Assembly: GCF_027214025.1 (NCBI RefSeq)
Contig: NZ_JAPWHB010000001.1
Location: 124,001 to 188,000 of the forward strand
Direction of reading: 5' to 3'
DNA from: Parahoeflea alexandrii
GTDB taxonomy: Bacteria; Pseudomonadota; Alphaproteobacteria; Rhizobiales; Rhizobiaceae
Length of the DNA stretch: 64,000 bases
Shown: positions 1,216 through 17,127 of the stretch, in pieces
How positions within the stretch are numbered: position 1 is the stretch's first letter
How the letters are laid out: each line of letters starts with the position of its first letter
Translations under genes and position numbers: made by a program
The notes under the pieces: generated by a model
Told to the model about the DNA's origin: nothing
Database searches by the model: none
What the model saw: only the letters and a program-made list of their open reading frames with translations

Positions 1216-1224
1216 GACAGATCA

Positions 1225-2175: not shown

Positions 2176-2180
2176 GAAGG

Positions 2181-2202
2181 GCGGGCGGCGAAAGCCGCCC
2201 GC
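2181..2202 (+). terminator. GNRA-capped hairpin after the MBL gene
   Basis: GCGGGCGGC (2181-2189) pairs with GCCGCCCGC (2194-2202) around a GAAA tetraloop, 5 bases after the MBL-fold stop. No T-tract follows, so it may be a weak or factor-dependent terminator, or an mRNA-stabilising element dividing the operon. The next gene begins 212 bases further on. Confidence 0.5.
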
Positions 2203-2414
2203 TGCATTCGCCGCAACGCGATGAATTCCATCGGGAATTCGGACGTGCAGCATCCGCGATAGTCTTCCGGGATCGAGGTTCGCATGTGCCGTCCATCAAA
2301 AGGCATTTTACGGGTTGATAGTTACATCTGCAACTAATAATTTTGGTTCGAGGCGTGCGATGCCCAGGCCCGATCAGCTCAGGATCGGCCCGGTGATCGG
2401 CAGGAAGGGAGATC
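2203..2414. other. Intergenic region before the flavoprotein hydroxylase
   Basis: About 210 bases with no supported gene. It contains GATGAATTCCATCGGGAATTC, in which GAATTCC and GGAATTC form an inverted repeat (2222-2240). The middle is AT-richer (around 2325-2345) and could hold a promoter for the hydroxylase gene. No confident -35/-10 pair was identified. Confidence 0.3.
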
Positions 2415-4022
2415 ATGAGCAAGATATTTGAGGTTCCGCTTTATCCGTATCAGCGCTCTGCTGACCAGGATCAGGCAACGCCGGTGCGCCACAAGGTGGT
2501 TGTGGTGGGTGCCGGTCCGATCGGGCTGGCGGCTGCAATCGACCTGGCGATGCAGGATGTTCCGGTCGTCGTCGTCGACGAGAACGACAAGGTCAGCTGG
2601 GGCTCGCGGGCGATCTGTTTTGCCAAGCGGCCGCTCGAGATCCTCGACCGGCTGGGCTGCGGCGATCCGATGGTCGACAAGGGCGTGATCTGGAACCTCG
2701 GCAAGGTCTATTTCGACGAACGCCAGGTGTTCGGTTTCAACCTGCTGCCCGAACAGGGACACAAGCGTCCGGCCTTCATCAATCTGCAGCAGTATTATTT
2801 CGAGCAGTATCTGGTCGACCGGGTGCGCCAGTTGCAGGCTGCGGGCAAGCCGATCGAGCTGCGCGGCGGCAACAAGGTGCTGGAATTGTCCCAGGACGAG
2901 ACCGGCGCGGACCTGACCATCGGTACGCCGGACGGGCCGTACAGGCTGAAAGCCGATTGGGTGATCGCCTGCGACGGCGCCGCCTCGCCGATCCGCAACA
3001 TGATGGGACTCGATTTCGTCGGCCGGGTGTTCGAGGACAATTTCCTCATCGCCGACGTGGTGATGGAAGCGGAATTTCCGACCGAACGCTGGTTCTGGTT
3101 CGACCCGCCGTTCAACCGCGGCCAGTCGGCGCTCTTGCACAAGCAGCCCGACAATGTCTGGCGGATCGATTTCCAGCTTGGCTGGGACATCGACCGCGAG
3201 GAGGAACTGAAGCCGGAAAACATCGACCGGCGGCTGAAGGCGATGCTTGGCGAGGACATCAGCTACGAGCTTGAATGGAGCTCGATCTACACGTTCCAGT
3301 GCCGCCGTATGGACCGGTTCCACGAGGGCAGGGTGATCTTCGCCGGCGACGCCGCGCATCAGGTCTCGCCATTCGGCGCACGCGGCGCCAATTCGGGCCT
3401 GCAGGACACCGACAACCTCGCCTGGAAGCTGAAGCTGATCATCGACGGTAAGGCACCGGTTACACTTCTTGACTCTTATGATGCAGAACGGGTGCACGGC
3501 GCCGACGAGAACATTCTCAACTCGTCGCGCTCGACCGATTTCATCACGCCGAAATCGGAAATGAGCCGGATCTTCCGCGATGCCGTGCTCGATTTGTCCG
3601 AACGCTATGAAGCGACGCGGCCGATGGTCAATTCCGGGCGGCTGTCGGTGCCCTGCACCTATGACGGTTCACCGCTGAACGGGCCCGATTGCGAGGCAAT
3701 GCCGGAGCGTACCCGTCCGGGCTCGCCGCTGGTCGACGCGCCGGTGCCGGGGGGCTGGCTGCTCGACCGCACAGGCTTCGGCTTTGAGCTGATGACAATC
3801 GACGAAACTGCGCCTGACGTTGTCGATGTGGATGGGATCGAGATCAAGCGGCTGGCGCTGGCGTCCGCCGACGATGCCGATGGCTATCTCAAGCAGCGTT
3901 ATCTCGGCGATGCGAAATCGGCGGTCTATCTGATCCGGCCGGACCAGCATGTGGCCGCGCGCTGGGACCATTATGACGAGACGGCGGTGAAAGCGGCCGT
4001 GCTCAAAGCGATCGGGAGATAA
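2415..4022 (+). CDS. FAD-dependent aromatic hydroxylase (MhaA/MhpA-like)
   Basis: A 535-residue class A flavoprotein monooxygenase that should use NAD(P)H and O2 to hydroxylate a phenolic ring. The dinucleotide-binding motif VGAGPIG is at residues 31-37, and the second FAD motif GDAAHQVSPFGARGANSG lies about two thirds along. AAGGGAGATC precedes the ATG. Four bases downstream is a 64-residue DUF2783 gene. This large flavoprotein plus a roughly 7-kDa partner matches the two-component MhaAB 3-hydroxyphenylacetate 6-hydroxylase described in Pseudomonas putida, which makes homogentisate. With FAH and maleylacetoacetate isomerase in the same operon that role fits well, but 3-hydroxyphenylpropionate or another phenol cannot be excluded. 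Confidence 0.8.
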   Translation: MSKIFEVPLYPYQRSADQDQATPVRHKVVVVGAGPIGLAAAIDLAMQDVPVVVVDENDKVSWGSRAICFAKRPLEILDRLGCGDPMVDKGVIWNLGKVYFDERQVFGFNLLPEQGHKRPAFINLQQYYFEQYLVDRVRQLQAAGKPIELRGGNKVLELSQDETGADLTIGTPDGPYRLKADWVIACDGAASPIRNMMGLDFVGRVFEDNFLIADVVMEAEFPTERWFWFDPPFNRGQSALLHKQPDNVWRIDFQLGWDIDREEELKPENIDRRLKAMLGEDISYELEWSSIYTFQCRRMDRFHEGRVIFAGDAAHQVSPFGARGANSGLQDTDNLAWKLKLIIDGKAPVTLLDSYDAERVHGADENILNSSRSTDFITPKSEMSRIFRDAVLDLSERYEATRPMVNSGRLSVPCTYDGSPLNGPDCEAMPERTRPGSPLVDAPVPGGWLLDRTGFGFELMTIDETAPDVVDVDGIEIKRLALASADDADGYLKQRYLGDAKSAVYLIRPDQHVAARWDHYDETAVKAAVLKAIGR

Positions 4023-4025
4023 TCC

Positions 4026-4220
4026 ATGTCTGCGCTCAACACCCAGGCCAACATCAAGGGGCCCGATGAGTTCTACGCCGAGTTGCTCTCGGTACACGAG
4101 GGGCTGAGCAAGGCGGAGAGCGATGCGCTCAACGCGCGCCTTATCCTGCTTATGGCCAACCACATTGGCGACCGTGAGGTGCTTTCGCAAGCCCTGCGGG
4201 CCGCCGCCCTGAAAGATTGA
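4026..4220 (+). CDS. DUF2783 small protein, likely hydroxylase coupling partner (MhaB-like)
   Basis: A 64-residue soluble, mostly helical protein of the DUF2783 type (core GLSKAESDALNARLILLMAN). GGAG lies 7-8 bases before the ATG, and the gene starts 3 bases after the hydroxylase stop, so the two are probably translated together. In Pseudomonas, MhaB is a small coupling protein needed for hydroxylation by MhaA. The equal size and adjacency here suggest the same role. The match to DUF2783 is by recognition; the equivalence to MhaB is inference. Confidence 0.75.
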   Translation: MSALNTQANIKGPDEFYAELLSVHEGLSKAESDALNARLILLMANHIGDREVLSQALRAAALKD

Positions 4221-4236
4221 ACGGAGGAGCTTCGCT

Positions 4237-4779
4237 ATGAAAATCGAACAGATCCATCACGTGGCCTATCGCTGCAAGGACGCCAAGGAAACCGTCAACT
4301 GGTATGTCGACAATCTCAACATGGATTTCGTGCTCGCCATTGCCGAGGACAAGGTTCCCTCGACTCACGAGCCTGATCCCTACATGCATGTGTTCCTCGA
4401 TGCCGGCCATGGCAATGTGCTGGCCTTCTTCGAGTTGCCGACGAAGCCGGAGATGGGGCGCGACGAGAACACCCCGATCTGGGTTCAGCACATTGCCTTC
4501 AAGGTGAAGGATCGCGATACGCTGGTTGCCTTCAAGGAAAAGCTCGAGGCCAACGGCATCGATGTTCTCGGGGTGACCGATCACTCGATTTTCCATTCGA
4601 TCTACTTCTTCGATCCGAATGGCCACCGCGTCGAACTGGCCTGCCCGGACCCGGACGAAGAGGCGATGATCAAGCGGCTGGACGCGGTCAAGTGGGATAT
4701 GCTTGAAGAATGGTCGAAGACCAAGCGCGCGCCCAAGCATGCCGACTGGCTGCACGCCAAGGAACTGTCGAAGGCATGA
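4237..4779 (+). CDS. VOC family protein (glyoxalase/extradiol dioxygenase fold)
   Basis: A 180-residue vicinal-oxygen-chelate protein with paired beta-alpha-beta-beta-beta modules. A plausible metal triad is H8 (QIHHVAYRC), H85 (WVQHIAFKV) and E133 (GHRVELACP), the arrangement seen in glyoxalases and type I extradiol dioxygenases. GGAGGAG lies before the ATG. It sits between the hydroxylase pair and maleylacetoacetate isomerase, so it probably isomerises or cleaves a ring intermediate of the same route. No homogentisate dioxygenase is visible in the window, so a ring-cleavage role is possible though unproven. Confidence 0.75.
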   Translation: MKIEQIHHVAYRCKDAKETVNWYVDNLNMDFVLAIAEDKVPSTHEPDPYMHVFLDAGHGNVLAFFELPTKPEMGRDENTPIWVQHIAFKVKDRDTLVAFKEKLEANGIDVLGVTDHSIFHSIYFFDPNGHRVELACPDPDEEAMIKRLDAVKWDMLEEWSKTKRAPKHADWLHAKELSKA

Positions 4780-4789
4780 GGACCGTTTG

Positions 4790-5431
4790 ATGGACATGCC
4801 CGTTCTCTATGATTACTGGCGCTCGTCGGCGAGCTACCGGGTGCGCATCGCGCTCAATCTCGCCGGCGTCGACTACAAGCCGGTGGTGGTGGACCTGTTG
4901 TGCAAGGCGCACAGGAGCGCCGAGCATCTCAAGCGCAACCCGCAAGGGCTGGTTCCGGCGCTCGAAATCGACGGGCTGATGCTGACCCAGTCGCTGGCGA
5001 TCATCGAGTACATCATCGAGACACGCGGTGTTTCGCTGTTGCCGGACGATGCGGCCGGACGGGTGCGGGTGCGGGCGCTGGCGCATTCGATTGCCATGGA
5101 CATTCACCCGGTGTGCAATCTCTCGGTGGTCAGCCATGTTCTCGAACTGGCGGGTGGTGACGACGCCATGCGGGTGGGCTGGATGCGCAAGTTCATCAGC
5201 CAGGGCCTGGAAGCATTCGAAACGCTTCTGGACCATCCGGCTACCGGCAGGTTCTGCCACGGCGATGCGCCGGGCCTGGCAGACATCTGCCTGATTCCGC
5301 AGATCTACAATGCCGAGCGCTGGGGCGCCGACATTTCCGGGCTGAAACGCATCCAGGCTGTGCGGAAGGCCTGCGACGCGCTGCCGGGCTTCGCCCGGGC
5401 GCACCCCGACCAGAACAATTTCAAGCCTTGA
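4790..5431 (+). CDS. maiA: Maleylacetoacetate isomerase (zeta-class GST)
   Basis: A 213-residue zeta-class glutathione transferase that isomerises maleylacetoacetate (or maleylpyruvate) to the fumaryl form using glutathione. The N-terminal thioredoxin-like domain has the catalytic-loop signature RSSASYRVRIAL (family form SSCSWRVRIAL), then NPQGLVPALEIDG, and a helical C-terminal domain ending in PGFARAHPDQ. The start at 4790 gives the expected N-terminus (MDMPVLYDYWRSS) and lies 10 bases after the VOC stop; the frame is open further upstream, but that would add unrelated residues. The product feeds the FAH-family enzyme at 205. The stop lies one base from the stop of the converging gene. Confidence 0.9.
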   Translation: MDMPVLYDYWRSSASYRVRIALNLAGVDYKPVVVDLLCKAHRSAEHLKRNPQGLVPALEIDGLMLTQSLAIIEYIIETRGVSLLPDDAAGRVRVRALAHSIAMDIHPVCNLSVVSHVLELAGGDDAMRVGWMRKFISQGLEAFETLLDHPATGRFCHGDAPGLADICLIPQIYNAERWGADISGLKRIQAVRKACDALPGFARAHPDQNNFKP

Positions 5432-5432
5432 T

Positions 5433-6020
5433 TCAGATCCTGGCCAGGCGCTTCTCCACCCTGGCCAGATATCGGGCCCGGCTTTCCGGCGTTGATTTGT
5501 CCATCAGGTAATGCGCCATGAAAAGGCGGCGGCAACTTTTGCCGCAGAGCGCGCGCATGCCGCGCAGGATGGTGCGCTTGCCGGGGTGAGCCACGACATA
5601 GGACCACCAGCGCGGCGCACCGCAGGTGGTGATCACGCCCAGCAGATTGATATGCGTCATCAAGGGTTCGATCGGCCCGGGGCCGTCGGGGATGCGGAAT
5701 GTCAGGTCCGGGGTCCAGACCCGGTCGAGCCAGCCCTTGAGCATCGCCGGAAGCCCGTACCACCAGGTCGGATAGACAAACAGCAGGCCCTCTGCGGCCC
5801 GGAGCCGTTCGGCATGGCCGGGGAACGGGTGATCGGCCAGCTTCATTTCGTTGTAGTGGCGGCGCTCATCGGCCGGCATCACCGGATCGAAACCTTCGGC
5901 ATAGAGATCGAGCAGATCCACCTGGTGACCGTTCTTCTCGAGTGCGCGCAAGGCCGTATCGCGGATACTGGCGCAGAAGCTTTCGGGAACCGGGTGGCAG
6001 TAGACCAGAAGAATACGCAT
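5433..6020 (-). CDS. NAD(P)H-dependent oxidoreductase, flavodoxin-like (copy 2)
   Basis: A 195-residue protein of the NQO1/MdaB flavodoxin-like fold, binding FMN or FAD and reducing quinones or other electrophiles with NAD(P)H. The start RILLVYCHPVPESFCAS is the phosphate-binding loop, and FVYPTWWYGLPAMLKGWLDR is the characteristic flavin-binding stretch. It overlaps the preceding gene in a TGATG arrangement at 6018-6022 and is the last gene of the minus-strand operon that begins with the ABC importer. It is clearly related to its neighbour, so the pair arose by duplication. The substrate is unknown; the context suggests reduction of an N-heterocycle intermediate. Confidence 0.85.
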   Translation of the reverse strand: MRILLVYCHPVPESFCASIRDTALRALEKNGHQVDLLDLYAEGFDPVMPADERRHYNEMKLADHPFPGHAERLRAAEGLLFVYPTWWYGLPAMLKGWLDRVWTPDLTFRIPDGPGPIEPLMTHINLLGVITTCGAPRWWSYVVAHPGKRTILRGMRALCGKSCRRLFMAHYLMDKSTPESRARYLARVEKRLARI

Positions 6021-6601
6021 CAGATGCTGTCCAGGGTACGTTCCACCTTCGACATGAACGCGTGCCGCGTCTTGTTGGTGGAGAGGTTCATTTCATAATG
6101 GGCAAGGTAGTTGACCGGCGCGCCGGGTTTCACTGTTGCGCGCAGCATCCTGTTGGCGATCTTGCGCGGCGGATCGCCCATCAGCCAGGTACGAAACCGC
6201 GATCCGCCATAGGAGGTGACGACAACGATCCTGGCGATGTTGTGCAATGTCGGCCGCACCTTACCATTGACCAGTCCGAAGGACACGCCGGGGAGGAACA
6301 CGCGGTCGATCCATCCCTTGAGAATGGCGGGAAAGCCGTAATTCCAGACCGGGTAGACCAGCACCAGCGCCTCGGCTTTGAGCAGGCGCTTTACATAGTC
6401 ATCGACCGGCTGCCGGTTGGTTTCGAGGTCATGGTAGTTCAGCCGCTCGGCCTCGCTCATCACCGGATTGAAGCCGTCCGCGTAGAGGTCGATGGCGTCG
6501 ACGGCGTGGCCGTTTTTCCTCAACCGCGCGATAGTCATGCGAAACAGGCTTGCGTTGAAGCTTGAGGCAACAGGATGGGCATGGACAACGAGTACGCGCA
6601 T
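6020..6601 (-). CDS. NAD(P)H-dependent oxidoreductase, flavodoxin-like (copy 1)
   Basis: A 193-residue paralogue of the next gene in the operon, with the same architecture: RVLVVHAHPVASSFNAS at the N-terminus and VYPVWNYGFPAILKGWIDRVF at the flavin site. It starts 10 bases after the stop of the FAD oxidoreductase (6612) and overlaps the second copy by one base. The two copies may form a heterodimer, since NQO1-type enzymes work as dimers with the active site at the interface, or they may act on different intermediates. Neither is shown by the sequence. Confidence 0.85.
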   Translation of the reverse strand: MRVLVVHAHPVASSFNASLFRMTIARLRKNGHAVDAIDLYADGFNPVMSEAERLNYHDLETNRQPVDDYVKRLLKAEALVLVYPVWNYGFPAILKGWIDRVFLPGVSFGLVNGKVRPTLHNIARIVVVTSYGGSRFRTWLMGDPPRKIANRMLRATVKPGAPVNYLAHYEMNLSTNKTRHAFMSKVERTLDSI

Positions 6602-6611
6602 TCGGAAGGCC

Positions 6612-8009
6612 TCAGCTTGCCTGTTTCAAGCCTTTGAACAGCCACGTCTTTCCAGCGCCAAAGTCATAGTCCGGGTCGTCCCAGGCGATCATCTTGCCCG
6701 GGTTGAGCAGGCCCTTGGGATCGGCTTCGTGTTTGAAGGCGAGCTGGATCTCGTCGGTCTGCTTCATGCCGCCTTCCTCGAGCGTGTAGCGGTGCGGATT
6801 GAAGATCGGGCAGCCGTTCTCATTGTGCAGGTCCATGATCTCCTCGAGCCGCTCCTCGGTGGTGAAGCGGATCAACGGCAGGCCGAAGCAGGTGATGTCG
6901 CCGTCGAAGCGGACGAATTCGAGGTGCGAGATCAGTTCGCCGGGGAACATCCGGTCCATCTTCGAGGCGAGCTCGAGCTGGTTGGGGAACGGGTAAAGCA
7001 CCTGCAGGTAGGTCCAGGCCGGATCGACCCGGAGCGCGCGCAGGGTGGTGTGGTTCCAGGCCAGTTCGAATACCGGCGGCAGCCCCTTGAGGTCGCCTGC
7101 CGTGGTGGCGTCAAAGACGATCTCGCCCGCATTTCGCGCGGTAAAGGCCTTGAAGGCGTCGTGGCTGTGCGGCGCGACCATGACCAGAACCACGCTCTGG
7201 CCTTCGGTCAGGAATTTCTGGTGACGCTTGAAGTAGTCGAACGGGCAGGGGGCGGCGACAACCGATATCAGCTTGGTCAGGATGCCGTCCTGGCGTGCAA
7301 GTGCGTTGGCATAGCTTGCCGCCGCATCGAAGCTGTCGAAGCCGACGATGGCGTCGACCCAGTCATAGGCCGGCGCCAGCGGCATTTCGATCTCGGTTAT
7401 GATTCCGTTGGTGCCGTAGGCATGGGTGACCTTGTGCAGGTCCTCGCCGATCAGTTCCAGTACCTGCGGCTCTTCCTCCATGGTCACCACGCGCAGGCGG
7501 ATGATGTTGCCGAAATCGCGCAATCCGCCCCAGGAGATCGAACCGACGCCGCCGGAGCCGCCGGCAATGAAGCCGCCCACGGTGGCGGTGTGGGTGGTGG
7601 AGGGATGCATGCGCAATTCCTGCCCGGAAGCGGCGCGCACCGCCTTGTCGAGATCGGAACAGATGACGCCGGGGCCGCAGATCACCCGGCCCGGAGCGAT
7701 TTCCCTGATCTCGTTCATGTCGGCGAGGCTGAGCACGAGGCCGCCGGACAGGGGCATGGCCTGGCCGTAATTTCCGGTGCCGGTGCCGCGCGGGGTGACC
7801 GGCACATCATGACGGTAGCAGGCCTTGAGAATGCGGATCAACTCGTCCTCGTTGCGCGGCGAAGCGACCAGATCCGCGGTGACATGATCGAGCTGGCGCT
7901 TGAGCACCGGCGAGTACCAGTAGAAATCCCGGCTCTTCTGCAGAACGATCTTGTCGTTCTGCTCGATGCGGATGCCGTCCAGATCGGCGATCAGTGCGGT
8001 CATGTCCAT
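6612..8009 (-). CDS. FAD-binding oxidoreductase, GlcD/PCMH type
   Basis: A 465-residue flavoenzyme of the FAD_binding_4 (PCMH) superfamily, which includes the GlcD subunit of glycolate oxidase and D-lactate dehydrogenases. The FAD-binding domain shows VTPRGTGTGNYGQ and then HPSTTHTATVGGFIAGGSGG. The C-terminus LLNPGKMIAWDD resembles the family ending (NPGK). No iron-sulfur cysteine motif is present. It starts 3 bases after the cytosine-deaminase-like gene stops, so it is tightly within the operon and probably oxidises a hydroxylated or reduced intermediate. It is a single-subunit enzyme; no GlcE or GlcF partner is nearby. Confidence 0.8.
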   Translation of the reverse strand: MDMTALIADLDGIRIEQNDKIVLQKSRDFYWYSPVLKRQLDHVTADLVASPRNEDELIRILKACYRHDVPVTPRGTGTGNYGQAMPLSGGLVLSLADMNEIREIAPGRVICGPGVICSDLDKAVRAASGQELRMHPSTTHTATVGGFIAGGSGGVGSISWGGLRDFGNIIRLRVVTMEEEPQVLELIGEDLHKVTHAYGTNGIITEIEMPLAPAYDWVDAIVGFDSFDAAASYANALARQDGILTKLISVVAAPCPFDYFKRHQKFLTEGQSVVLVMVAPHSHDAFKAFTARNAGEIVFDATTAGDLKGLPPVFELAWNHTTLRALRVDPAWTYLQVLYPFPNQLELASKMDRMFPGELISHLEFVRFDGDITCFGLPLIRFTTEERLEEIMDLHNENGCPIFNPHRYTLEEGGMKQTDEIQLAFKHEADPKGLLNPGKMIAWDDPDYDFGAGKTWLFKGLKQAS

Positions 8010-8012
8010 GGC

Positions 8013-9335
8013 TCAGGGCTCCATCAAATCATCAAGGTCGGAATAATCGGGCAGAGTGGCGTCAATCGCCCTGCCGTCGCGGATCACGGTTCTGTCGCTT
8101 TCGGGACGGGACAGAAGCTCGGTCAGGCTGCGGCCGCGGAATAGCACCAGGTCGGCCTTGCGGCCGGCAGCCAGCAATCCGGCGTCATCGAGCCGCATGG
8201 CGCGGGCCGGGTTTGCCGCCACGGTCGCCGGCCAGTCGCCGACGGGATGGTCGAAATGTACGATGCGGGTGGCTTCGCGGTAGACCTCGAGCACATCGAG
8301 GTCGCCATAGGCATAGAACGGATCACGGGTGTTGTCGGAGGCGACCGCGACATTGATGCCGCGCGCCGCCATTTCATGCAGCAGGGTGACACCCCGCCAG
8401 CGCGGTGTGGTGGCATCCGGACGGCGGTCCTGCAAGTACATGTTGCACATCGGCAGCGAGACCACAGAAAGGCCTGCGCGGGCGACCTTGTCGAGCGTCG
8501 CCTTTACCCTGTCATCGGGCTGGCGGGCCAGCGAGCAGCAATGGCCGACCATGATTCTGCCTTCAAAGCCATGCCGCAGGGCGGCATCGGCGATGCGGTC
8601 AAGCGAGATGGCGTTGGTATCGTCGGTCTCGTCGGCATGGAAATCGAGATCAAGCCCGAGATCGATGGCTTTTGCGAACATGCGATCCAGCAACATGTCG
8701 AGATCGGGCACCATGTAGGTGACGGCGCCAAGAATGCCCCGATGGCGTGCGATCGTGTCGGCCAGGCGATTGAACCAGCTTTCGTCCAGCGCCTGGTCGA
8801 TGCCGAACAGGCAAGCGCCTTGCAACTCGATGCGGCCTTTCCAGCGCTCCCGCACGGTATCGAAGACAGGCCAGGAGATGTCCTCCTGCGGCGGCACGGA
8901 ATCGATGTGGGTGCGCAACGCGCCGGTGCCGTGGGCATAGGCACAGGCGAGGGAGAACTCCATCCGCCGCTCGACGTCATCGGCAGTCCAGCGCGCGGCA
9001 CGGTCTTCGCCCACGGCGTCCAGCGCCCCGGGGAAACTGCCGTCCGGGTTGGGCTTGCGGGCCCAGATGTGGCCTTTGTCGATATGGGTATGGCAATCGA
9101 CAAAGACCGGGAATGCGATACCGCCACGGCAATCGACTGCTTCGGCAGCAGCGGGTGCGCCTTCGGCGGGGTGGATGGCTTTGATCTCTCCCCGGGAGAT
9201 ATCAACGGCTGCCAGCGCAAAGCCGTCAGTATCGAAGGCAAAGCCCCCGGCGCTTGCCAGATGCGACCGGTGCAACCGGATATTGCCCAGGGTGTAGGTG
9301 CTTGCGGCGGGCAGGGAGATGCTGCGCGGTGTCAC
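8013..9335 (-). CDS. Cytosine-deaminase-like amidohydrolase
   Basis: A 440-residue amidohydrolase-superfamily enzyme closest in layout to cytosine deaminase CodA and related heterocycle deaminases. The metal and catalytic residues are visible in order: H82 and H84 (DCHTHIDKGH), H233 and E236 (FHADETDD), H265 (MVGHCC) and D334 (ASDNTRDPF). It begins directly after the permease stop. Such enzymes remove an exocyclic amine from a ring, for example cytosine, creatinine or isoguanine. The neighbouring importer, RidA and creatininase-family genes suggest an N-heterocycle, but the exact ring cannot be read from the sequence. Confidence 0.8.
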   Translation of the reverse strand: MTPRSISLPAASTYTLGNIRLHRSHLASAGGFAFDTDGFALAAVDISRGEIKAIHPAEGAPAAAEAVDCRGGIAFPVFVDCHTHIDKGHIWARKPNPDGSFPGALDAVGEDRAARWTADDVERRMEFSLACAYAHGTGALRTHIDSVPPQEDISWPVFDTVRERWKGRIELQGACLFGIDQALDESWFNRLADTIARHRGILGAVTYMVPDLDMLLDRMFAKAIDLGLDLDFHADETDDTNAISLDRIADAALRHGFEGRIMVGHCCSLARQPDDRVKATLDKVARAGLSVVSLPMCNMYLQDRRPDATTPRWRGVTLLHEMAARGINVAVASDNTRDPFYAYGDLDVLEVYREATRIVHFDHPVGDWPATVAANPARAMRLDDAGLLAAGRKADLVLFRGRSLTELLSRPESDRTVIRDGRAIDATLPDYSDLDDLMEP

Positions 9336-10187
9336 TCATTGCTCCTGTTTCAGTGCACTCTCGTGCCAGCGATGCAGCACGAGGTGGGAGATCCATGACA
9401 GGGCGAGGAAGATGACGATGCCGGTCAGGGAAATGAGGATCAGGGCGGCGAACAGCCGTGGCGCGTTGAGCCTGTAGCCGGCTTCGATGATGCGCGAGGC
9501 AAGCCCCGAGGACTGTCCGGCGGTGCCCGCGACGAACTCGGCAACCACGGCGCCGATCAGCGCAAGACCGCCGGCGATCTTCAGGCCGCCAAGGAAGTAG
9601 GGCATAGCGGCGGGCAGGCGGAGATGCCACAGGGTCTGCCAGCGGCTGGCGCCGTTGAGCTTGAAATAGTCGATCAGGTTGCGGTCGACGGAATTCAACC
9701 CCAGCGTGGTGTTGGACAGGATCGGGAAGAAGGCGACGATCCAGGCGCAAAGCAAGAGTTTCGTGGTCTGGTCGTCGACATAGATGTTGATCAGCGGAAA
9801 GATCGCCACGATCGGTGTGACCTGCAAGACGATGGCAAACGGAAACAGGCTCATTTCGATCCAGCGGGACTGGGTGAAGAGAACCGACAGCCCGACGCCG
9901 CCGACAACGGCCAGCGCCAGCGACAGCATGGTTATCCGCAAGGTGACCAGCAGCGACGCAAACAGCAGGCCGGCATCCTCGATCAGCGTGTTGAGCACAA
10001 CACCGGGGCGCGGCAGGATGTATTGCGGGATCTCGTTCCAGACGCAGACACGATCCCAGAAGCAGATCGCCGCTGCCATGATGATCAGCGGCAGCAGCCA
10101 GCGGCCGGTACGCTCGAGCTTGCGGCTGCGCTCGCGTCGGGCTTCTTCGGCGTCAATGACGGGCGGGGCTGTTTCAATGGACGACAT
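9336..10187 (-). CDS. ABC transporter permease (NitT/TauT/SsuC type)
   Basis: A 283-residue inner-membrane permease of the BPD_transp_1 class with about six hydrophobic segments. The EAA-type coupling loop is FKLNGASRWQTLWHLRLPAAMP. The frame is open to 10295, but the start at 10187 (MSSIETAPPV) gives the normal N-terminus and a 14-base overlap with the ATPase gene, so I chose it. It is fused in an operon with the ATPase upstream and the cytosine-deaminase-like gene downstream. The family moves nitrate, taurine, alkanesulfonates, and thiamine-precursor pyrimidines. Confidence 0.85.
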   Translation of the reverse strand: MSSIETAPPVIDAEEARRERSRKLERTGRWLLPLIIMAAAICFWDRVCVWNEIPQYILPRPGVVLNTLIEDAGLLFASLLVTLRITMLSLALAVVGGVGLSVLFTQSRWIEMSLFPFAIVLQVTPIVAIFPLINIYVDDQTTKLLLCAWIVAFFPILSNTTLGLNSVDRNLIDYFKLNGASRWQTLWHLRLPAAMPYFLGGLKIAGGLALIGAVVAEFVAGTAGQSSGLASRIIEAGYRLNAPRLFAALILISLTGIVIFLALSWISHLVLHRWHESALKQEQ

Positions 10188-10959
10188 CTGCGGCCTCCAT
10201 GCCCATGGCGCGCGACAGGGTGTCGGACGTATTGCGGCAAAGCTCGGCATAGTGCGCCGATGTCCTGAATGCCGCGTCGCGCGGGTAGGGCGCATTGATC
10301 GTCAGTTCTTCGAACACGCGGCCAGGATGGGCGGCCATGACGGTGATGCGGTTTGACAGGAACACGCTTTCGAAAACCGAATGGGTAACGAACAGCACGG
10401 TGAAGCGGCGTTCCTGCCAGAGTTCGAGCAGATCATTGTTGAGCTTGAACCGGGTGATCTCGTCGAGGGCCGCGAAAGGCTCGTCCATCAGCAGCATGCG
10501 CGGGCGCGTCACCAGTCCGCGGGCGATGGAAACCCGCATCTTCATCCCGCCCGACAACTCCCTTGGCACGGCGGTCTCGAAGCCCGTGAGATGCACCCGT
10601 TCGAGCACCTCGGCAATCTGCGGTTCGGCATCCTTGCGCGAGACGCCGCGCAACCGCAACGGCAGCCAGACATTGTCATAGACGCTGGCCCAGGGCAGCA
10701 GGGTTGGCTCCTGGAAGACGAAGCCGATGTCGTTCTGCTGAAGCGTCGGGCCGCGCCAGTCGACCACGCCGGAGGTGGGTGAGGACAGGCCGGCGATGAT
10801 CCGCAAGGCGGTCGACTTGCCACAGCCCGACGGGCCGAGAAGGCTCATGAAGTCGCCCTCGTTGACGGTCAGGTTGACCCGCTCCAGCGCGGTGACGCCG
10901 GATGCGAATGTCTTGCCAATGGATTGCAGGATCAGGAAAGGATTTGTCCGGTCGGGCAT
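10174..10959 (-). CDS. ABC transporter ATP-binding protein (NitT/TauT/SsuB type)
   Basis: A 261-residue ATPase with Walker A GPSGCGKST, Q-loop region GFVFQEPTLLPWASV, signature LSGGMKMRVSIARGL and Walker B MLLMDEPFAALDE, followed by the switch histidine in FVTHSVFE. The LPWASVYDN stretch is typical of the SsuB/TauB subfamily. It energises the permease encoded next. It is separated from the binding-protein gene by a strong hairpin at 10994-11024, so the binding protein can be made in excess. Confidence 0.9.
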   Translation of the reverse strand: MPDRTNPFLILQSIGKTFASGVTALERVNLTVNEGDFMSLLGPSGCGKSTALRIIAGLSSPTSGVVDWRGPTLQQNDIGFVFQEPTLLPWASVYDNVWLPLRLRGVSRKDAEPQIAEVLERVHLTGFETAVPRELSGGMKMRVSIARGLVTRPRMLLMDEPFAALDEITRFKLNNDLLELWQERRFTVLFVTHSVFESVFLSNRITVMAAHPGRVFEELTINAPYPRDAAFRTSAHYAELCRNTSDTLSRAMGMEAADVVH

Positions 10960-10993
10960 GGGTGTCCAGAGGATCGTCTTGCAGGATCAGAAG

Positions 10994-11024
10994 ACCCGCC
11001 CGGACGCGTGCGATCCGGGCGGGT
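10994..11024 (-). terminator. Hairpin between binding-protein and ATPase genes
   Basis: ACCCGCCCGGA (10994-11004) and TCCGGGCGGGT (11014-11024) form a perfect 11-bp stem with a 9-nt loop, placed just after the binding-protein stop. On the minus strand no strong T-run follows, so it is more likely an attenuating or 3'-end-protecting hairpin than a full terminator. Such elements usually raise binding-protein levels relative to the membrane parts. Confidence 0.6.
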
Positions 11025-11031
11025 GGATGTC

Positions 11032-12033
11032 TTACTTCTTCAGGTCGAGCCCGACACCTTTGTTGACATAGTCGAGTGTGTAGGAGGCCTTGATGTCGAG
11101 GCCGTCCTTGACCACGCCGGCCTTGACCATCTTGGCATAGAAGCTCTCGACGCGCGCATCGGTCATGGCGCCGATACCCATTGTTTCGGTGTCGCCGGAA
11201 TCTACGATACCGTATTCCTTCAACTCTTTGATCGAGAAGGCGATCTGTTCGTCCGTCATATCCGGATTGTCCTTCTGGATCAGGGCATTGGCGGCAGCGT
11301 TGTCGCCATAGAGATAGTTGTACCAGCCCTTGATCGAGCCTTCGACAAAGCATTTGACGGCTTCCGGCTTGCTGTCGATGGTTGCCTGCATCACCTCGAT
11401 TGTGGTCGAGTAGGTGTCAAAGCCGTAATCGGCGACAAGGAACAGGTTGGGAATGAAGCCGCCTTCACGCTGAACGGCGTACGGCTCGGAGGTGATGTAT
11501 CCCTGCTGCGCCGATTTCGGGTTGGCGATGAACGGAGCAGGATTGAAGGTGTAGGGCACCCGCTTGGAGGCATCAAAGCCGAATTCGGTGATCATCCACT
11601 GATAGTAGCTCTGGAAGCCCTGATCGCCGAGAATGAACTGTTCGGCATTCTTGAGGTCTTCCCAGGTGTCGAGGCCTTGACCGGGATGGGTCATCAGCAC
11701 TTGCGGTTCCTTCTGAAACGATGCCGCGACGACCTTGACTGGAATGTTCTGCTCAACGGCCGAGAAGGCCTCAAGCAGGTTGCCGCCCATGTGGAACTCG
11801 ATCTTGCCGGCGAGCAGCAGCGCGCGGTTGTTCACCTGCGGGCCGCCCTGGGCGATGGTCACATCGAGGCCGCAGGCGGCGTAGGTGCCGTCGGCGACGG
11901 ATTGATAGAAGCCGCCATGTTCGGGCTGGGCAAGCCAGTTTGTTCCGAACGTGACCTTCTCGGCGGCAGAAGCCTGAGCGCCCATGGCCAGAACGACCGC
12001 CAGAGCGGCCGAGGAACGAAGAAGAAGCGTCAT
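11032..12033 (-). CDS. ABC transporter substrate-binding protein (NMT1/THI5-like)
   Basis: A 333-residue periplasmic binding protein. A Sec signal peptide (TLLLRSSAALAVVLAMG, cleavage after AQASA) precedes the mature start AEKVTFGTNWLAQPEHGGFY, which is typical of the NMT1/THI5-like group that binds pyrimidines and related small molecules. ATG 12033 is chosen because AAGGG lies 9 bases before it; ATG 12042 is an in-frame alternative. It heads the minus-strand operon. The cognate ligand is probably the heterocycle later processed by the deaminase, FAD oxidoreductase and divergent amidohydrolase. A thiamine-pyrimidine precursor is an alternative. Confidence 0.85.
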   Translation of the reverse strand: MTLLLRSSAALAVVLAMGAQASAAEKVTFGTNWLAQPEHGGFYQSVADGTYAACGLDVTIAQGGPQVNNRALLLAGKIEFHMGGNLLEAFSAVEQNIPVKVVAASFQKEPQVLMTHPGQGLDTWEDLKNAEQFILGDQGFQSYYQWMITEFGFDASKRVPYTFNPAPFIANPKSAQQGYITSEPYAVQREGGFIPNLFLVADYGFDTYSTTIEVMQATIDSKPEAVKCFVEGSIKGWYNYLYGDNAAANALIQKDNPDMTDEQIAFSIKELKEYGIVDSGDTETMGIGAMTDARVESFYAKMVKAGVVKDGLDIKASYTLDYVNKGVGLDLKK

Positions 12034-12326
12034 GTACACCATCCCTTGGTTTTGGTCGGGGATGCGAATCATCCCTCGTAATTTTACCAACATTCCTACC
12101 TTGCAAGCGTCATGCCATGACAAGCCGCGCAGGTCTTGCCACGGGTTTCCGGCGCCTGCTGCTTGCGCTTTTTGGGAAACTGCCTTCGGAATAATCCGGT
12201 TGCCCAAAAAAAAGCCCGAAAACGAAAACACTTTGCAGAGTGAACCATTCCAGTCCTGTTTGGAATAGACTGACAAAACTTTGTCGGGTTAATGAACACC
12301 GATCTTGTCTGCCGGGGATTGCCGCC
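12034..12326. promoter_or_regulatory. Divergent control region with two inverted repeats
   Basis: This 293-base region separates the importer operon (minus) from the RidA gene (plus). Two perfect short inverted repeats sit together: ATTCCA (12247-12252) with TGGAAT (12261-12266), and GACAAA (12272-12277) with TTTGTC (12280-12285). They are good candidates for the operator of a shared regulator. No known riboswitch core, including TPP, was recognised on either strand. No convincing promoter pair could be fixed. Confidence 0.45.
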
Positions 12327-12713
12327 GTGAAGCACCATACACCAGAAACGATAAAGGCGCCGTTCGCCCGCTACAGCCACGGGGTGGAAGTCCCGCCGGG
12401 ATATCGGCTGATGCTTTGTTCCGGGCAGCTGTCGATCAGCGTCGACGGCGACATTCCGGAAACGGCGGAGGCGCAGACGGAACTGTGCTTCCAGAATGTC
12501 GGCGCGATCCTGGAAGCGGCCGGAATGTCTCTGAAGGATATCGTGCGGATCAACGCCTACGTCACGGATCGGGCACATTTGCCCGGCTACATGAAAGTGC
12601 GGGACCGCCTGTTTGCCGATCCGGCGCCGGCCTCGACACTGATGATCGTCTCGGGCTTTGCGCGCGAGGCCTTCAAGGTGGAAATCGAGGTTATTGCCGC
12701 TGCGCCGGAATGA
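12327..12713 (+). CDS. RidA family protein (YjgF/YER057c/UK114)
   Basis: A 128-residue RidA-family protein, normally a trimer that hydrolyses reactive enamines or imines to ketones and ammonia. The frame is open to 12240, but the GTG at 12327 has CGGGG 8 bases upstream and gives the right length. Visible family features are LMLCSGQLSISVDGDIPETAEAQ and the C-terminal EVEIEVIAAAPE-like end (read here as KVEIEVIAAAPE). The canonical active-site arginine region is replaced by PASTLMIVSGFA, so it may belong to a non-canonical Rid subgroup. It is followed after 13 bases by the creatininase-family gene and is divergent from the importer operon. Confidence 0.8.
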   Translation: MKHHTPETIKAPFARYSHGVEVPPGYRLMLCSGQLSISVDGDIPETAEAQTELCFQNVGAILEAAGMSLKDIVRINAYVTDRAHLPGYMKVRDRLFADPAPASTLMIVSGFAREAFKVEIEVIAAAPE

Positions 12714-12726
12714 AAGTTGAGGGAAC

Positions 12727-13527
12727 ATGATGATGAAGCGGAAAATCTGGTGGGGCGATTTCACCACACGCGAGTTCGAGGGGCTTGATCCGGAGACGAC
12801 GATCGCGGTGTTGCCCGTGGCAGCCATTGAACAGCACGGGCCGCATCTGCCGGTGTCGACCGACAGTTCGATCATGCAGGGCATGCTCGAGACGGTGATC
12901 GACCGGGTGCCAGAAGATCTCGATATCCGGATCCTTCCTATCCAGTGTGTCGGCAAATCCAACGAGCATCAGCATGCGGCGGGCACGCTAACGATCCCGG
13001 TGACGACGCTGATCGAGCACTGGATCGAACTGGGTCACTCGATCGCCCGCGCCGGCATCCGCAAGGTGGTGCTGGTCAATTCGCATGGCGGCAACGAAGA
13101 GGTGATGGGCATTGTCGCCCGCGAGTTGCGGGTCCGGGCAAGGATGCTGGCGGTCAAGACCTCGTGGATGCGGTTCGGCCTGCCGGCGGGAATGTACAGT
13201 GCGACAGAGACGTCCTACGGCATCCACGGCGGCGACGTCGAAACATCCCTGATGCTGCATTTCCGTCCGGATCTTGTCGTCTTCGACAAGGCGGAGAATT
13301 TCGTCTCGGCGGTGACGCGCGCCGAAGGCGAGTTCGAACTGCTGCGCCATACCGGCACCCATGCCTTTGCCTGGATCGCCAGCGACCTCAACCCTTCGGG
13401 AGCGGTCGGCGAGGCCGCCCTGGCAACAGCTGAAAAGGGCGAGGCGACGGCCCGGCATCAGGCCGAAGGATTTATCCGGCTGATGAACGATGTAAGATCC
13501 GCCAAGCTCGACGACTGGCTCGCCTGA
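12727..13527 (+). CDS. Creatininase family amidohydrolase
   Basis: A 266-residue metal-dependent amidohydrolase of the creatininase family. The N-terminal metal motif is E35-Q-H37-G-P-H40-L-P with D46 (STDSS), followed by NSHGGNEE and the HGGDVETSLML segment, all expected ligands. Family members open creatinine, deformylate riboflavin/F420 intermediates, or trim peptide tails, so creatinine is not a safe substrate call. It is co-transcribed with RidA and divergent from a deaminase/importer operon, which suggests hydrolysis of a cyclic or acyclic amide made downstream of deamination. Confidence 0.85.
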   Translation: MMMKRKIWWGDFTTREFEGLDPETTIAVLPVAAIEQHGPHLPVSTDSSIMQGMLETVIDRVPEDLDIRILPIQCVGKSNEHQHAAGTLTIPVTTLIEHWIELGHSIARAGIRKVVLVNSHGGNEEVMGIVARELRVRARMLAVKTSWMRFGLPAGMYSATETSYGIHGGDVETSLMLHFRPDLVVFDKAENFVSAVTRAEGEFELLRHTGTHAFAWIASDLNPSGAVGEAALATAEKGEATARHQAEGFIRLMNDVRSAKLDDWLA

Positions 13528-14680: not shown

Positions 14681-15700
14681 TTATCTCCGGAACTCGATCG
14701 GAATGACAAAGCGGGTCCGCGCGCCCACCGGTGGCGCAGCGAAAGGGGCTGCACGCCTGACGTGGTCGATTGCAGCCTTGTCAACCCTGGCGTTGCCGGA
14801 GCTTCTCGACACGGTGACACTGACTGCCTGGCCGCTGGCGGTGACGTGGAAACTGACATGAGCCACACCCTTGCCGCCGGCGTTCCTCTGCCTCGTTCTT
14901 GCAATCTTTGTATAGACCTTGCCCGGATAGTTGGCCGCTGCGGCATTGCCCGAATTGGCCGATGTCGGCTTCGATTTGCTCTTGCCGCTGGAGGTGGCGC
15001 TGGCCGAGGACTTGCCGTCCCGGGATCCGGCCTTGTTGTTGACCTGTGATCTCGAGGTCTCGCTCCCGGCGCTGGATTTGGTGCGTGGTTTGTCCTGCTT
15101 TGGCGATTTCTGCGCCGGTTTGGGCTTGGGCAGCGGCACCGCGACGGGCTTTGGTTCTTCTACCGGGGTGATGGTTTCCGCCGGCTTGAGCGGTTTGATC
15201 TGGTCCGGCTCGCGCGGTTCGGTTTTCGTGGGCGTGATGCGGTGCGGCTGTTCACGTCTCGGCTCAGCCGCGGGCGTTTCCGGAACGACGGCTTCCAGCC
15301 TTTTGGCTGCGGATGGCGCGACAGGCCCATCATCCTGCGTGGGTTCCAGCTTGTACAGGCTCGGTGACGGAGCATTCGGCACCGGCACGGTAGCCGGCAC
15401 GGTGGCTTGCGGAGGGGATGCGACCGGTTGAGTGACCGGCGTACGAGGTGTTGGCGGTGTGACAGGTGGCGGGCTCGCGATCGCCGTTGCTTCCGGCTCG
15501 ACCGGATCGAGCCTGTCGCCAGCCTTGATCAGGTCGGCAAAATCGCTGCCCAGGACTGCCTCGGTCTCGCCATCGCCTCCCTCGACCAGGGTCTCCTGAC
15601 CGAATTCCGGCGATATTGCCATGGCCGCGACATGCAGCAGGGACGAAGCCAGCAATGCAACGAGCGCCGCCAGACGCAATCTGGAGGGGCGGGAGATCAT
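14681..15700 (-). CDS. tonB: TonB energy transducer
   Basis: A 339-residue TonB-family protein that spans the periplasm and passes proton-motive force to the heme receptor. An N-terminal membrane anchor (LAALVALLASSLLHVAAMA) is followed by a long Pro/Lys/Glu-rich linker (about residues 70-240). The C-terminal TonB domain has YPGKVYTKIARTRQRNAGGKG and VSRSSGNARVDKAAIDHV, ending in RFVIPIEFRR. The start overlaps the exbD stop by 4 bases. The linker is longer than in E. coli TonB (239 residues in total). Confidence 0.9.
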   Translation of the reverse strand: MISRPSRLRLAALVALLASSLLHVAAMAISPEFGQETLVEGGDGETEAVLGSDFADLIKAGDRLDPVEPEATAIASPPPVTPPTPRTPVTQPVASPPQATVPATVPVPNAPSPSLYKLEPTQDDGPVAPSAAKRLEAVVPETPAAEPRREQPHRITPTKTEPREPDQIKPLKPAETITPVEEPKPVAVPLPKPKPAQKSPKQDKPRTKSSAGSETSRSQVNNKAGSRDGKSSASATSSGKSKSKPTSANSGNAAAANYPGKVYTKIARTRQRNAGGKGVAHVSFHVTASGQAVSVTVSRSSGNARVDKAAIDHVRRAAPFAAPPVGARTRFVIPIEFRR

Positions 15701-16101
15701 CGGCTTACGCCCTGTTCTGTGACGAGCATGATCCTGCCTGCGCCGAGGCCGCGCAACTGCCTGCCGATGTCGATGAGCCTGGCGGCGGGAAGCTCGCGGT
15801 CGGGGACCAGCCGTATCTCCTTGAGATCGTCAGGTGTCGTTTCCTGCTTGATGGTGACATAATGGGCCGGCGTGACGAGCGCGCCACGGTACTTCATCAA
15901 CCCGTCCGGCATGATCACCAGCGCATCCGGCGGCTCCCGGTTTTCGAGGTCAGCGGTCGAGACAAGCCTGACCTCTCTGTCAAGCGGCGGGGCAATCTGG
16001 GCAGCAACGATGAAGAAGATCAGCATCAGGAAAACGATGTTGATCAGGGCGATCGTCGGCTCAGGTCTTGCCCGCCCGGATTTGTCTGGAGCCACTCGCA
16101 T
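15697..16101 (-). CDS. exbD: ExbD/TolR family biopolymer transport protein (second copy)
   Basis: A 134-residue ExbD-type protein with one N-terminal membrane helix (PTIALINIVFLMLIFFIVAAQ) and a periplasmic domain. An acidic residue is not present in the usual place within the helix; the equivalent region reads ALINIVFLML, with Asn where the proton-path Asp is expected. It follows the first exbD gene by 8 bases and overlaps tonB. It probably works with ExbB and the other ExbD in the TonB motor. Confidence 0.85.
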   Translation of the reverse strand: MRVAPDKSGRARPEPTIALINIVFLMLIFFIVAAQIAPPLDREVRLVSTADLENREPPDALVIMPDGLMKYRGALVTPAHYVTIKQETTPDDLKEIRLVPDRELPAARLIDIGRQLRGLGAGRIMLVTEQGVSR

Positions 16102-16109
16102 GGATAATC

Positions 16110-16496
16110 CTACCGCACGATCTGCAAGCTGATGCCGGTTGCCCGCCTGAGAACCAGCAAGGTGTCGACCAGTTGCTGCGAGCTCGCGGTTTCATCAACC
16201 GACAGGATTACGGCATTGACACCGGACTCGGACTTCAGCCGCTCGATCTCGCCGGCAACCGTCTCACTGGTCATTTCCGATCCGTTCAGCAGCAGGCGCT
16301 CAGCGGTGAGCTTGATAAAGGCCGGGACGCTCGCTTGCTGCGCCGGATTGCCACCGCCGGATGCGCCGAGCTCGACATCGGCAAACCGGGAAAAGGTCGA
16401 ACTGAGCATGAAGAACAGCAACAACAGGAAGATGATGTCGATGAGCGAGGTCATCGAAATCTGGCGTCGTCTGTATCCGGAAGCTTCAAGCCGCAT
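16110..16496 (-). CDS. exbD: ExbD/TolR family biopolymer transport protein (first copy)
   Basis: A 128-residue ExbD protein. Its membrane helix (TSLIDIIFLLLLFFMLSS) keeps the conserved Asp of the D-I-I-F-L-L motif needed for proton transfer. The periplasmic part ends in LRRATGISLQIVR. It overlaps the exbB stop by 11 bases. Together with exbB, the second exbD and tonB it should energise heme uptake through the receptor encoded upstream. Confidence 0.9.
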   Translation of the reverse strand: MRLEASGYRRRQISMTSLIDIIFLLLLFFMLSSTFSRFADVELGASGGGNPAQQASVPAFIKLTAERLLLNGSEMTSETVAGEIERLKSESGVNAVILSVDETASSQQLVDTLLVLRRATGISLQIVR

Positions 16497-17127
16497 CGGC
16501 GGGAACAGGCCATCCGCCTGCCAATGAAGCCGATGAACGCGGATCGTCGAACGACTGATGCGCCACCGGGTTGAGAATGCGCGTCACCGCCATCTCGATG
16601 GCCAGTTGATGACGTTCGACACGGCTTTCGAAATAGGTGAGCACAATGCTCGTCGGCATGGCGACGGCAAGTCCCACGGCAGTGGTCAGCAGCGCCACCC
16701 AGATGCCGCCGGCCAGGATTGAGGGATCGACGCTGTTGCCCGATTGCTGCAGGGCCTGGAAGGCGGTGATCATTCCCAGCACCGTGCCGAACAGGCCGAT
16801 CAGCGGGGAGATCTGCGCGATGGTGTCGAGAACCCGGAAACCACGCTGGAGGGTCTTGATCTGCGCGTTGGCGTTGACCGCCAGCACATCCTCGATATCG
16901 GCGCGGGAGAGCTTGTTGTCGGCTGACTGGCGCTTGAGGCGGACCGCCATCATCTCGATGCTGTGGACGCCCTTTCTGGTGCCGAGTCTCAGGGATCCGA
17001 ACTGCCAGAACTTGTAGAGCGCCATGGCAACAGCGATCACCGAGAGCAACAGCAGCACAACAACGACCGGACCACCGACCGCGATGAGTTGAGCGATCCG
17101 GGCGATTGGGTTTTCGAGAAGGCTCAT
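16486..17127 (-). CDS. exbB: ExbB/TolQ/MotA proton channel protein
   Basis: A 213-residue protein with three membrane segments: an N-terminal one (VGGPVVVVLLLLSVIAVAMAL) and two C-terminal ones around IAQISPLIGLFGTVLGMITAF and ILAGGIWVALLTTAVGLAVAMP. The ISPLIGLFGTVLGM stretch is the ExbB/TolQ family signature. It overlaps the preceding small gene by 4 bases (ATGA). It forms the channel of the TonB motor with the ExbD proteins. Confidence 0.92.
   Translation of the reverse strand: MSLLENPIARIAQLIAVGGPVVVVLLLLSVIAVAMALYKFWQFGSLRLGTRKGVHSIEMMAVRLKRQSADNKLSRADIEDVLAVNANAQIKTLQRGFRVLDTIAQISPLIGLFGTVLGMITAFQALQQSGNSVDPSILAGGIWVALLTTAVGLAVAMPTSIVLTYFESRVERHQLAIEMAVTRILNPVAHQSFDDPRSSASLAGGWPVPADAA

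Follow-up and report, generated by a model that had tools for sequence, protein, structure and literature searches.

Introduction

Almost every cell contains folates, and these decay to pterins; to our knowledge, the genes that dismantle the pterin ring are poorly known. The rut system of Escherichia coli directs a flavin oxygenase, a flavin reductase, an amidohydrolase, a Rid protein and a transporter at the uracil ring. Variovorax sp. F1 degrades folic acid by carboxypeptidase G and pterin deaminase; the 2022 report on this soil bacterium traces folate as far as deaminopteroic acid and ends on the question of whether and how the deaminated products are broken down further (PMC9513972). Here, we analysed a stretch of 64,000 nucleotides from Parahoeflea alexandrii (contig NZ_JAPWHB010000001.1, positions 124,001 to 188,000; "the window" means this whole stretch), in which nine genes in two divergent arms (5433-13527) probably form a locus for the uptake and breakdown of a pterin (pteridine) derived from folate. 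The key enzyme has already been assigned by others; what we add is the set as a whole, how widely it occurs and a proposed role for each of the eight remaining genes.

A crystallised relative of the flavoprotein

The minus-strand gene at 6612-8009 encodes a flavin adenine dinucleotide (FAD)-binding protein, hereafter FADox. Its AlphaFold model, with a mean predicted local distance difference test (pLDDT) score of 83.7, was used in the fold search that yielded PDB entry 6V42, entitled 'Crystal structure of the flavin oxygenase with cofactor bound involved in folate catabolism'. This entry is the best solved relative of FADox, matching it over the full length with 89% identity in 464 columns (982.8 bits). 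The 465 listed residues of the 6V42 chain are identical to those of a protein from a congener (locus L044, genome G374; 465/465), and the region around the congener gene (L197) carries the complete nine-gene set, with identities of 67-89% and with gene order and relative strands as in the window. As the identical congener protein sits in the same nine-gene order, 6V42 comes from this kind of cluster.

An earlier reading of the sequence (the original prediction) had named the substrate an unknown N-heterocycle, and this position has been overtaken, given that an orthologue from the same cluster type was deposited as a flavin oxygenase of folate catabolism. FADox may thus be the oxygenase of pterin or lumazine. 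As to the label 'GlcD-like', the protein scored 96.7 bits, far below the curated NCBIfam cut-off of 567.9 for GlcD; a glycolate oxidase subunit was rejected on this ground.

Organisation of the gene set

The features of the locus are as follows.

5433..6020, minus strand: NQO1, NAD(P)H-dependent oxidoreductase of the Flavodoxin_2 family (Pfam), proposed to supply electrons to the flavin oxygenase
6020..6601, minus strand: NQO2, second Flavodoxin_2 oxidoreductase (Pfam), role putative
6612..8009, minus strand: FADox, FAD_binding_4 flavoprotein (Pfam), orthologue of PDB 6V42/6V43
8013..9335, minus strand: CodA-type amidohydrolase (Amidohydro_3, NF005759), proposed deaminase of pterin (2-amino-4-oxo ring)
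9336..10295, minus strand: permease of an ATP-binding cassette (ABC) transporter, BPD_transp_1 (Pfam), true start may be 10187
10174..10959, minus strand: ABC ATPase, ABC_tran (Pfam)
10960..11031, minus strand: hairpin 3' of the binding-protein gene (folding and alignment), role putative
11032..12033, minus strand: NMT1/THI5-type periplasmic binding protein (Pfam NMT1), proposed pterin receptor
12247..12266, no strand: inverted repeat ATTCCA-N8-TGGAAT, candidate operator
12327..12713, plus strand: Rid-family protein (PF01042) with Ser replacing the catalytic Arg (Pfam and alignment)
12727..13527, plus strand: creatininase-family amidohydrolase (PF02633, Pfam), proposed ring-opening amide hydrolase

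The list of open reading frames (ORFs) and the Pfam matches bear out the nine genes, positions and families given originally. The junctions are likewise as described before: NQO1 and NQO2 overlap by 1 nt, gaps of 10, 3 and 0 nt lead up to the permease gene, the permease and ATPase genes overlap by 122 nt when the longest ORF is taken, and the 72-base gap between the ATPase and binding-protein genes, the exception among these small gaps and overlaps, holds a hairpin. If the permease gene began at 10187, where GGAGG lies upstream, the overlap would shrink to 14 nt. On the facing arm, both the Rid and the creatininase-family genes are present as predicted, and only the start of the former moves. 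Translation of the Rid gene probably begins at the GTG at 12327, not at 12240, as (i) an in-frame ATG occurs at that point in the aligned loci L005, L007, L009, L017 and L036, and (ii) RefSeq begins the Rhizobium johnstonii gene at the same point.

Conservation and linkage of the two arms

Neighbourhoods were compared with the FADox gene as bait. All nine genes lie close together in 22 of 34 loci from genomes of named species. As for the remaining 12, L006, L008, L019, L020 and L034 are short contigs, L035 stops at the FAD gene, and in L018, L023, L024, L030, L031 and L032 at least one gene of the set has no match. We also chose 60 regions by hand among the hits of FADox, for the most part a single one for each genus of the family plus 20 from a search of the phylum, so that the presence of FADox in 60/60 follows from the selection. 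With the two reductases taken as one class, 40 of these regions have all eight classes, the individual classes being found in 58 (ATPase, a count that may take in unrelated ABC ATPases), 58 (amidohydrolase), 56 (permease), 54 (creatininase), 54 (binding protein), 50 (Rid) and 49 (reductase). The creatininase gene may be upstream and divergent, upstream and co-directional, or downstream, and the Rid gene is sometimes at the other end; both are mostly retained.

We also searched 398 genomes of the phylum for FADox (E <= 1e-60) and the creatininase-family protein (E <= 1e-30) irrespective of linkage. FADox was found in 32 genomes and the creatininase in 71, including 32/32 of those with FADox (Fisher p ~1e-27, kinship not corrected). 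The two genes start within 11 kb of each other in 28/32 genomes, the misses being G761, G621, G693 and G701. Of the 394 genomes sampled within the family, 153 have a FADox match at E <= 1e-60, a count that takes in remoter paralogues; at E <= 1e-200, FADox is present in 14 of 18 genomes of the genus.

These data support the nine genes being one conserved, co-inherited set for one pathway. A single pathway across both arms had been anticipated, and its arms do co-occur in shuffled order (22/34, 40/60 and 28/32). Persistence of the nine genes together in relatives had been set beforehand as a test, and such co-occurrence was found in 22/34 loci.

Two variations were seen beside this pattern. Some Rhizobiaceae carry a paralogous set (L072, L126, L132; FADox 52-54%) with creatininase and CodA-like genes upstream and diverged ABC genes downstream; an NMT1-like match is absent in L072 and L126, and L132 has one of 23%. 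A 2-oxoglutarate (2OG)-Fe(II) oxygenase of the DIOX_N type recurs in or near the set in L026, L063, L068, L132, L141, L143 and L149 (family checked in L026 and L068), and side-chain removal is a possible role for it.

Amidohydrolases and transporter

The 8013-9335 protein passes the curated cut-off of NF005759 (640 vs 403 bits) and, among the matches listed (31 matched), falls below the cut-off in 24 other models. In an alignment to 1k6w, H82, H84, H233, E236, H265 and D334, which we take to be the metal ligands, are invariant in 23/23 sequences. The residue aligned with Gln156 of E. coli CodA is not Gln, and the position of Asp314 is occupied by Asn335; both CodA residues presumably recognise the base. 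The description 'cytosine-deaminase-like' thus holds at the level of NF005759 and fails at these two positions, on which a true cytosine deaminase was rejected. Pterin shows the same 2-amino-4-oxo edge as isocytosine, and for this reason deamination of pterin by the protein is plausible. Another CodA-like gene, on an Aminobacter plasmid (L039), has Rid, GntR, amidase, isochorismatase, hydantoinase-like and opine-dehydrogenase-like genes as neighbours; this locus is perhaps another ring-degradation pathway.

The protein encoded at 12727-13527 belongs to PF02633 and scores 82 bits against the 235 required by TIGR04448, which rejects a true creatinine hydrolase; we propose it as a putative ring-opening amide hydrolase.

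A second kind of deaminase is tied to the transporter family in other bacteria. PDB 2PAJ is, we presume, an isoxanthopterin deaminase, as reportedly described by Hall et al. in 2010. A diverged set on a Klebsiella plasmid (L060) comprises a PDR/VanB-type reductase, CodA-like, Rid, creatininase, binding-protein, ATPase, permease and FAD oxidoreductase genes; it divergently faces a second block of binding-protein, amidohydrolase and 2OG oxygenase genes, and this second amidohydrolase scores 822 bits with NF009059 and 673 bits with 2PAJ. Deaminases of the 2PAJ type occur in 10/398 genomes of the phylum (E <= 1e-100). We inspected nine regions, from nine of these ten genomes, and found transporter genes of the set's type near the deaminase gene in six (L169, L170, L171, L174, L175 and L176), with only binding-protein genes in L175. 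In L148/L176, the 2PAJ-type gene lies inside the cluster and a CodA-like gene was not found. Matches to the 2PAJ type in the host genome are weak (<=46.6 bits).

The 11032-12033 protein matches Pfam NMT1 (71.3 vs a gathering score of 20.5). With its AlphaFold model (pLDDT 88.3), the nearest solved folds are a thiamin-bound protein, a formylaminopyrimidine (FAMP)-binding protein and THI5, at 14-20% identity. Taurine and sulfonate binders stand at ranks 25-26 (taurine 25), so that, at the level of predicted fold, the sulfonate-type ligand once named as fatal to a single pathway is not indicated.

Proposed pathway

Gene content, co-inheritance, metal ligands and orthology with a crystallised enzyme and its cluster were all established in this analysis, whereas the form of the substrate, each single reaction and the order of the steps are our inference. 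The NMT1-type protein would capture a free pterin left by folate decay, and the ABC transporter would carry it into the cell. The CodA-like enzyme would then strip the 2-amino group off the 2-amino-4-oxo edge of the pyrimidine to give a lumazine, and FADox would oxygenate the ring, with the two flavodoxin-like reductases passing on electrons taken from NAD(P)H. Such electron feeding fits the replacement or supplementation of these reductases by a PDR/VanB-type one in four loci (L060, L061, L150 and L152; L150 also has an NQO-like gene). The creatininase-family metalloenzyme would hydrolyse a ring amide made labile by oxygenation, and the Rid-like protein may handle a later intermediate by a route other than classical Arg-dependent imine hydrolysis. 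The rings considered originally, namely a pyrimidine, a creatinine-like ring and hydroxymethylpyrimidine (HMP), did not include pterin, which contains such a pyrimidine ring.

A pterin is favoured by the folate title of 6V42, by the survival of the linkage through rearrangement, by the invariant deaminase metal ligands, by the thiamin- and FAMP-like fold of the binding protein and, as separate support, by the association of 2PAJ-type genes with this transporter family, including L148/L176 and the adjoining blocks of the Klebsiella plasmid. Several observations weigh against a pterin substrate. The putative part of FADox in folate catabolism comes from outside this analysis, from the title of the PDB entry only. 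The CodA-like protein is not close to any protein with checkable pterin deaminase activity, and its 59% relative in L039 has no FADox match within a 24-kb stretch, where a FAD-binding oxidoreductase is cut at the edge. By Pfam family, no folate hydrolase is among the nine genes, and the genome was not searched for one. Parts of the transporter also occur away from the set: in Shinella (L064), a binding protein of 44% identity, together with ATPase and permease genes, lies beside a different amidohydrolase, and in Ensifer (L065), one of 48% is accompanied by a permease, with no enzyme of the set annotated in the vicinity. Genes for 2PAJ-type deaminases and FADox share 3/398 genomes (Fisher p 0.038), and besides pairs at 6.1 and 11.0 kb, one pair is separated by 189 kb. 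No set-type transporter was close to the 2PAJ-type gene in three of the nine regions (L172, L173 and L177), and the transporter matches in L174 are weak (26-44%).

The Rid protein adds to these points, with Ser at the equivalent of Arg105 in the window and in 8/8 other aligned sequences; the four PDB chains listed (of 19 matched) have Arg at this position. Arg is needed for Rid imine hydrolysis (PMC4433059, PMC8113886), and ~10% of RidA proteins have Ser in its place (PMC4433059). The enamine clean-up once assigned to this gene is therefore doubtful, and a classical RidA imine deaminase is ruled against by the Arg-to-Ser change.

Alternative explanations

The rival that survives best, which we nonetheless regard as unlikely, is a general module for dismantling N-heterocycles, in which the Hoeflea copy acts on pterins and the enterobacterial, Rhodobacterales and paralogous Rhizobiaceae copies act on other rings. 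Distant members do swap parts, as seen in the four loci with a PDR/VanB-type reductase, in the 2OG oxygenase of some, and in the missing (L072, L126) or weak (L132) NMT1-like match, and the identity of FADox in these members is ~40-54%. The genes for FADox, the Rid protein, the creatininase, the deaminase and the transporter, however, mostly stay together across the groups, suggesting similar chemistry; there are exceptions, such as L149, L155 and L156, which are without one or more of these genes.

A single-ring pyrimidine, for instance the thiamin pyrimidine (HMP or FAMP) or a cytosine analogue, is in our view an improbable substrate. The thiamin-, FAMP- and THI5-type folds nearest to the binding protein and the place of the amidohydrolase in the cytosine deaminase group speak for such a ring, but identity to those binders is only 14-20%, the positions of CodA Gln156 (not Gln) and Asp314 (Asn) differ, and the title of 6V42 points to folate.

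An oxidised purine or hydantoin (8-oxoguanine, urate-like) appears more doubtful still. Creatininase acts on a five-membered cyclic amide, and the linked Klebsiella amidohydrolase resembles the 8-oxoguanine deaminase PRK08203, at 375 bits, which is below the cut-off of 532. That enzyme nevertheless fits 2PAJ far better than the 8-oxoguanine deaminase 7ww2 (673 vs 236 bits), and folate is, again, what the 6V42 title names. That the two arms are unrelated neighbours, as their divergent transcription and the absence of a joining regulator from the window might suggest, is extremely improbable and was rejected on the proximity of creatininase to FADox in 28/32 genomes, in varied orders and strands.

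Regulatory elements

The hairpin in the 72-base gap folds with -31.3 kcal/mol (z -2.6), and 3/200 shuffles fold as well. It is visible by eye in 9/10 aligned sequences, being absent from L011 and imperfect in L009, with paired changes in L021 and L197, and may tune transcript levels between the binding-protein and ATPase genes.

ATTCCA-N8-TGGAAT, the dyad between the arms, is the only match in the window with <=1 mismatch; 8/100 shuffles also had one. Extended by two further bases, the dyad has a single exact site in the genome and one site with one mismatch (G000:C10:535732). The exact dyad occurs in 7/197 loci, two of which represent the window's own genome. In 27 loci, the sequence 5' of the binding-protein gene was scored for its best match to the 12 arm bases: 10-12/12 bases were found at -231 to -246 in L003, L004, L005, L007, L009, L017, L021 and L197 (0-4/200 shuffles as good), 9/12 in L010, L011 and L012 (11-18/200 shuffles as good), and <=9/12 in the remaining 16 loci. 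Since strong matches fall in 8/27 loci and the rest are weaker, we regard the dyad, conserved in Hoeflea, as a clade-limited candidate operator. A guessed dyad sequence tried before had given no match.

The earlier statement that no regulator lies inside the set agrees with Pfam for the window; in other genera, LysR genes lie within the set or next to it, which suggests that regulation differs between clades. Families were scanned in 153 of the 278 listed flanking ORFs, in batches of 80 and 73, and LysR was the commonest (14/80 and 4/73). No extra enzyme family stood out among the top 25 listed.

Neighbouring genes

A plus-strand run at 205-5431 converges on the set and comprises FAH-like, MBL-fold, FAD_binding_3 monooxygenase, VOC and maleylacetoacetate isomerase (TIGR01262, 243.6 bits) genes, the FAH, MBL and VOC assignments being read by eye. 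It looks like an aromatic route of the gentisate/homogentisate type. We rejected this operon as a member of the set because, among the 34 loci, its three tallied genes adjoin the set only in Hoeflea: the isomerase in 10 (all Hoeflea), the monooxygenase in five and VOC in three, with none outside Hoeflea. At 14681-17127, a TonB-like gene is followed by two ExbD-like genes and one ExbB-like gene, as judged by eye from the translations.

Comparison with known systems

A literature search for the gene set or the codes 6V42/6V43 gave, among the entries listed, no paper on this pathway by title or abstract start; most subscription journals were outside its scope, and a primary paper may exist. The proposed pathway would share folate degradation including pterin deamination with Variovorax sp. 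F1; the main text of the report on that strain contains none of the terms 'creatininase', 'ABC transporter' and 'gene cluster' (PMC9513972). The nine-gene set makes the fate of the deaminated folate products, at which that report stops, directly testable.

The closest relative is the flavin oxygenase of PDB 6V42/6V43, with 89% identity over the full length and the same nine-gene neighbourhood, and no difference was found at this level. The 2PAJ-type deaminase is associated with the same transporter family in other bacteria, but belongs to another amidohydrolase group than the 8013-9335 protein.

More tentatively, the set may represent a full Rut-like, non-homologous route for the pterin ring that is common in Rhizobiaceae and reaches Rhodobacterales and enterobacteria, with an NMT1-type pterin importer, with the NF005759 'cytosine deaminases' at these loci being pterin deaminases, and with pterin-ring roles for the creatininase-family and Arg-less Rid proteins. 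Such a pathway would correct the names 'cytosine deaminase' and 'RidA' there. The likeness to the E. coli rut pathway for uracil lies in the same kinds of parts working on one ring. The parts themselves differ: the oxygenase here is of the FAD_binding_4 family and the amidohydrolase of the Creatininase family, neither being of the families to which we take RutA and RutB to belong, and RutC has the catalytic Arg, whereas the Rid protein of this set carries Ser.

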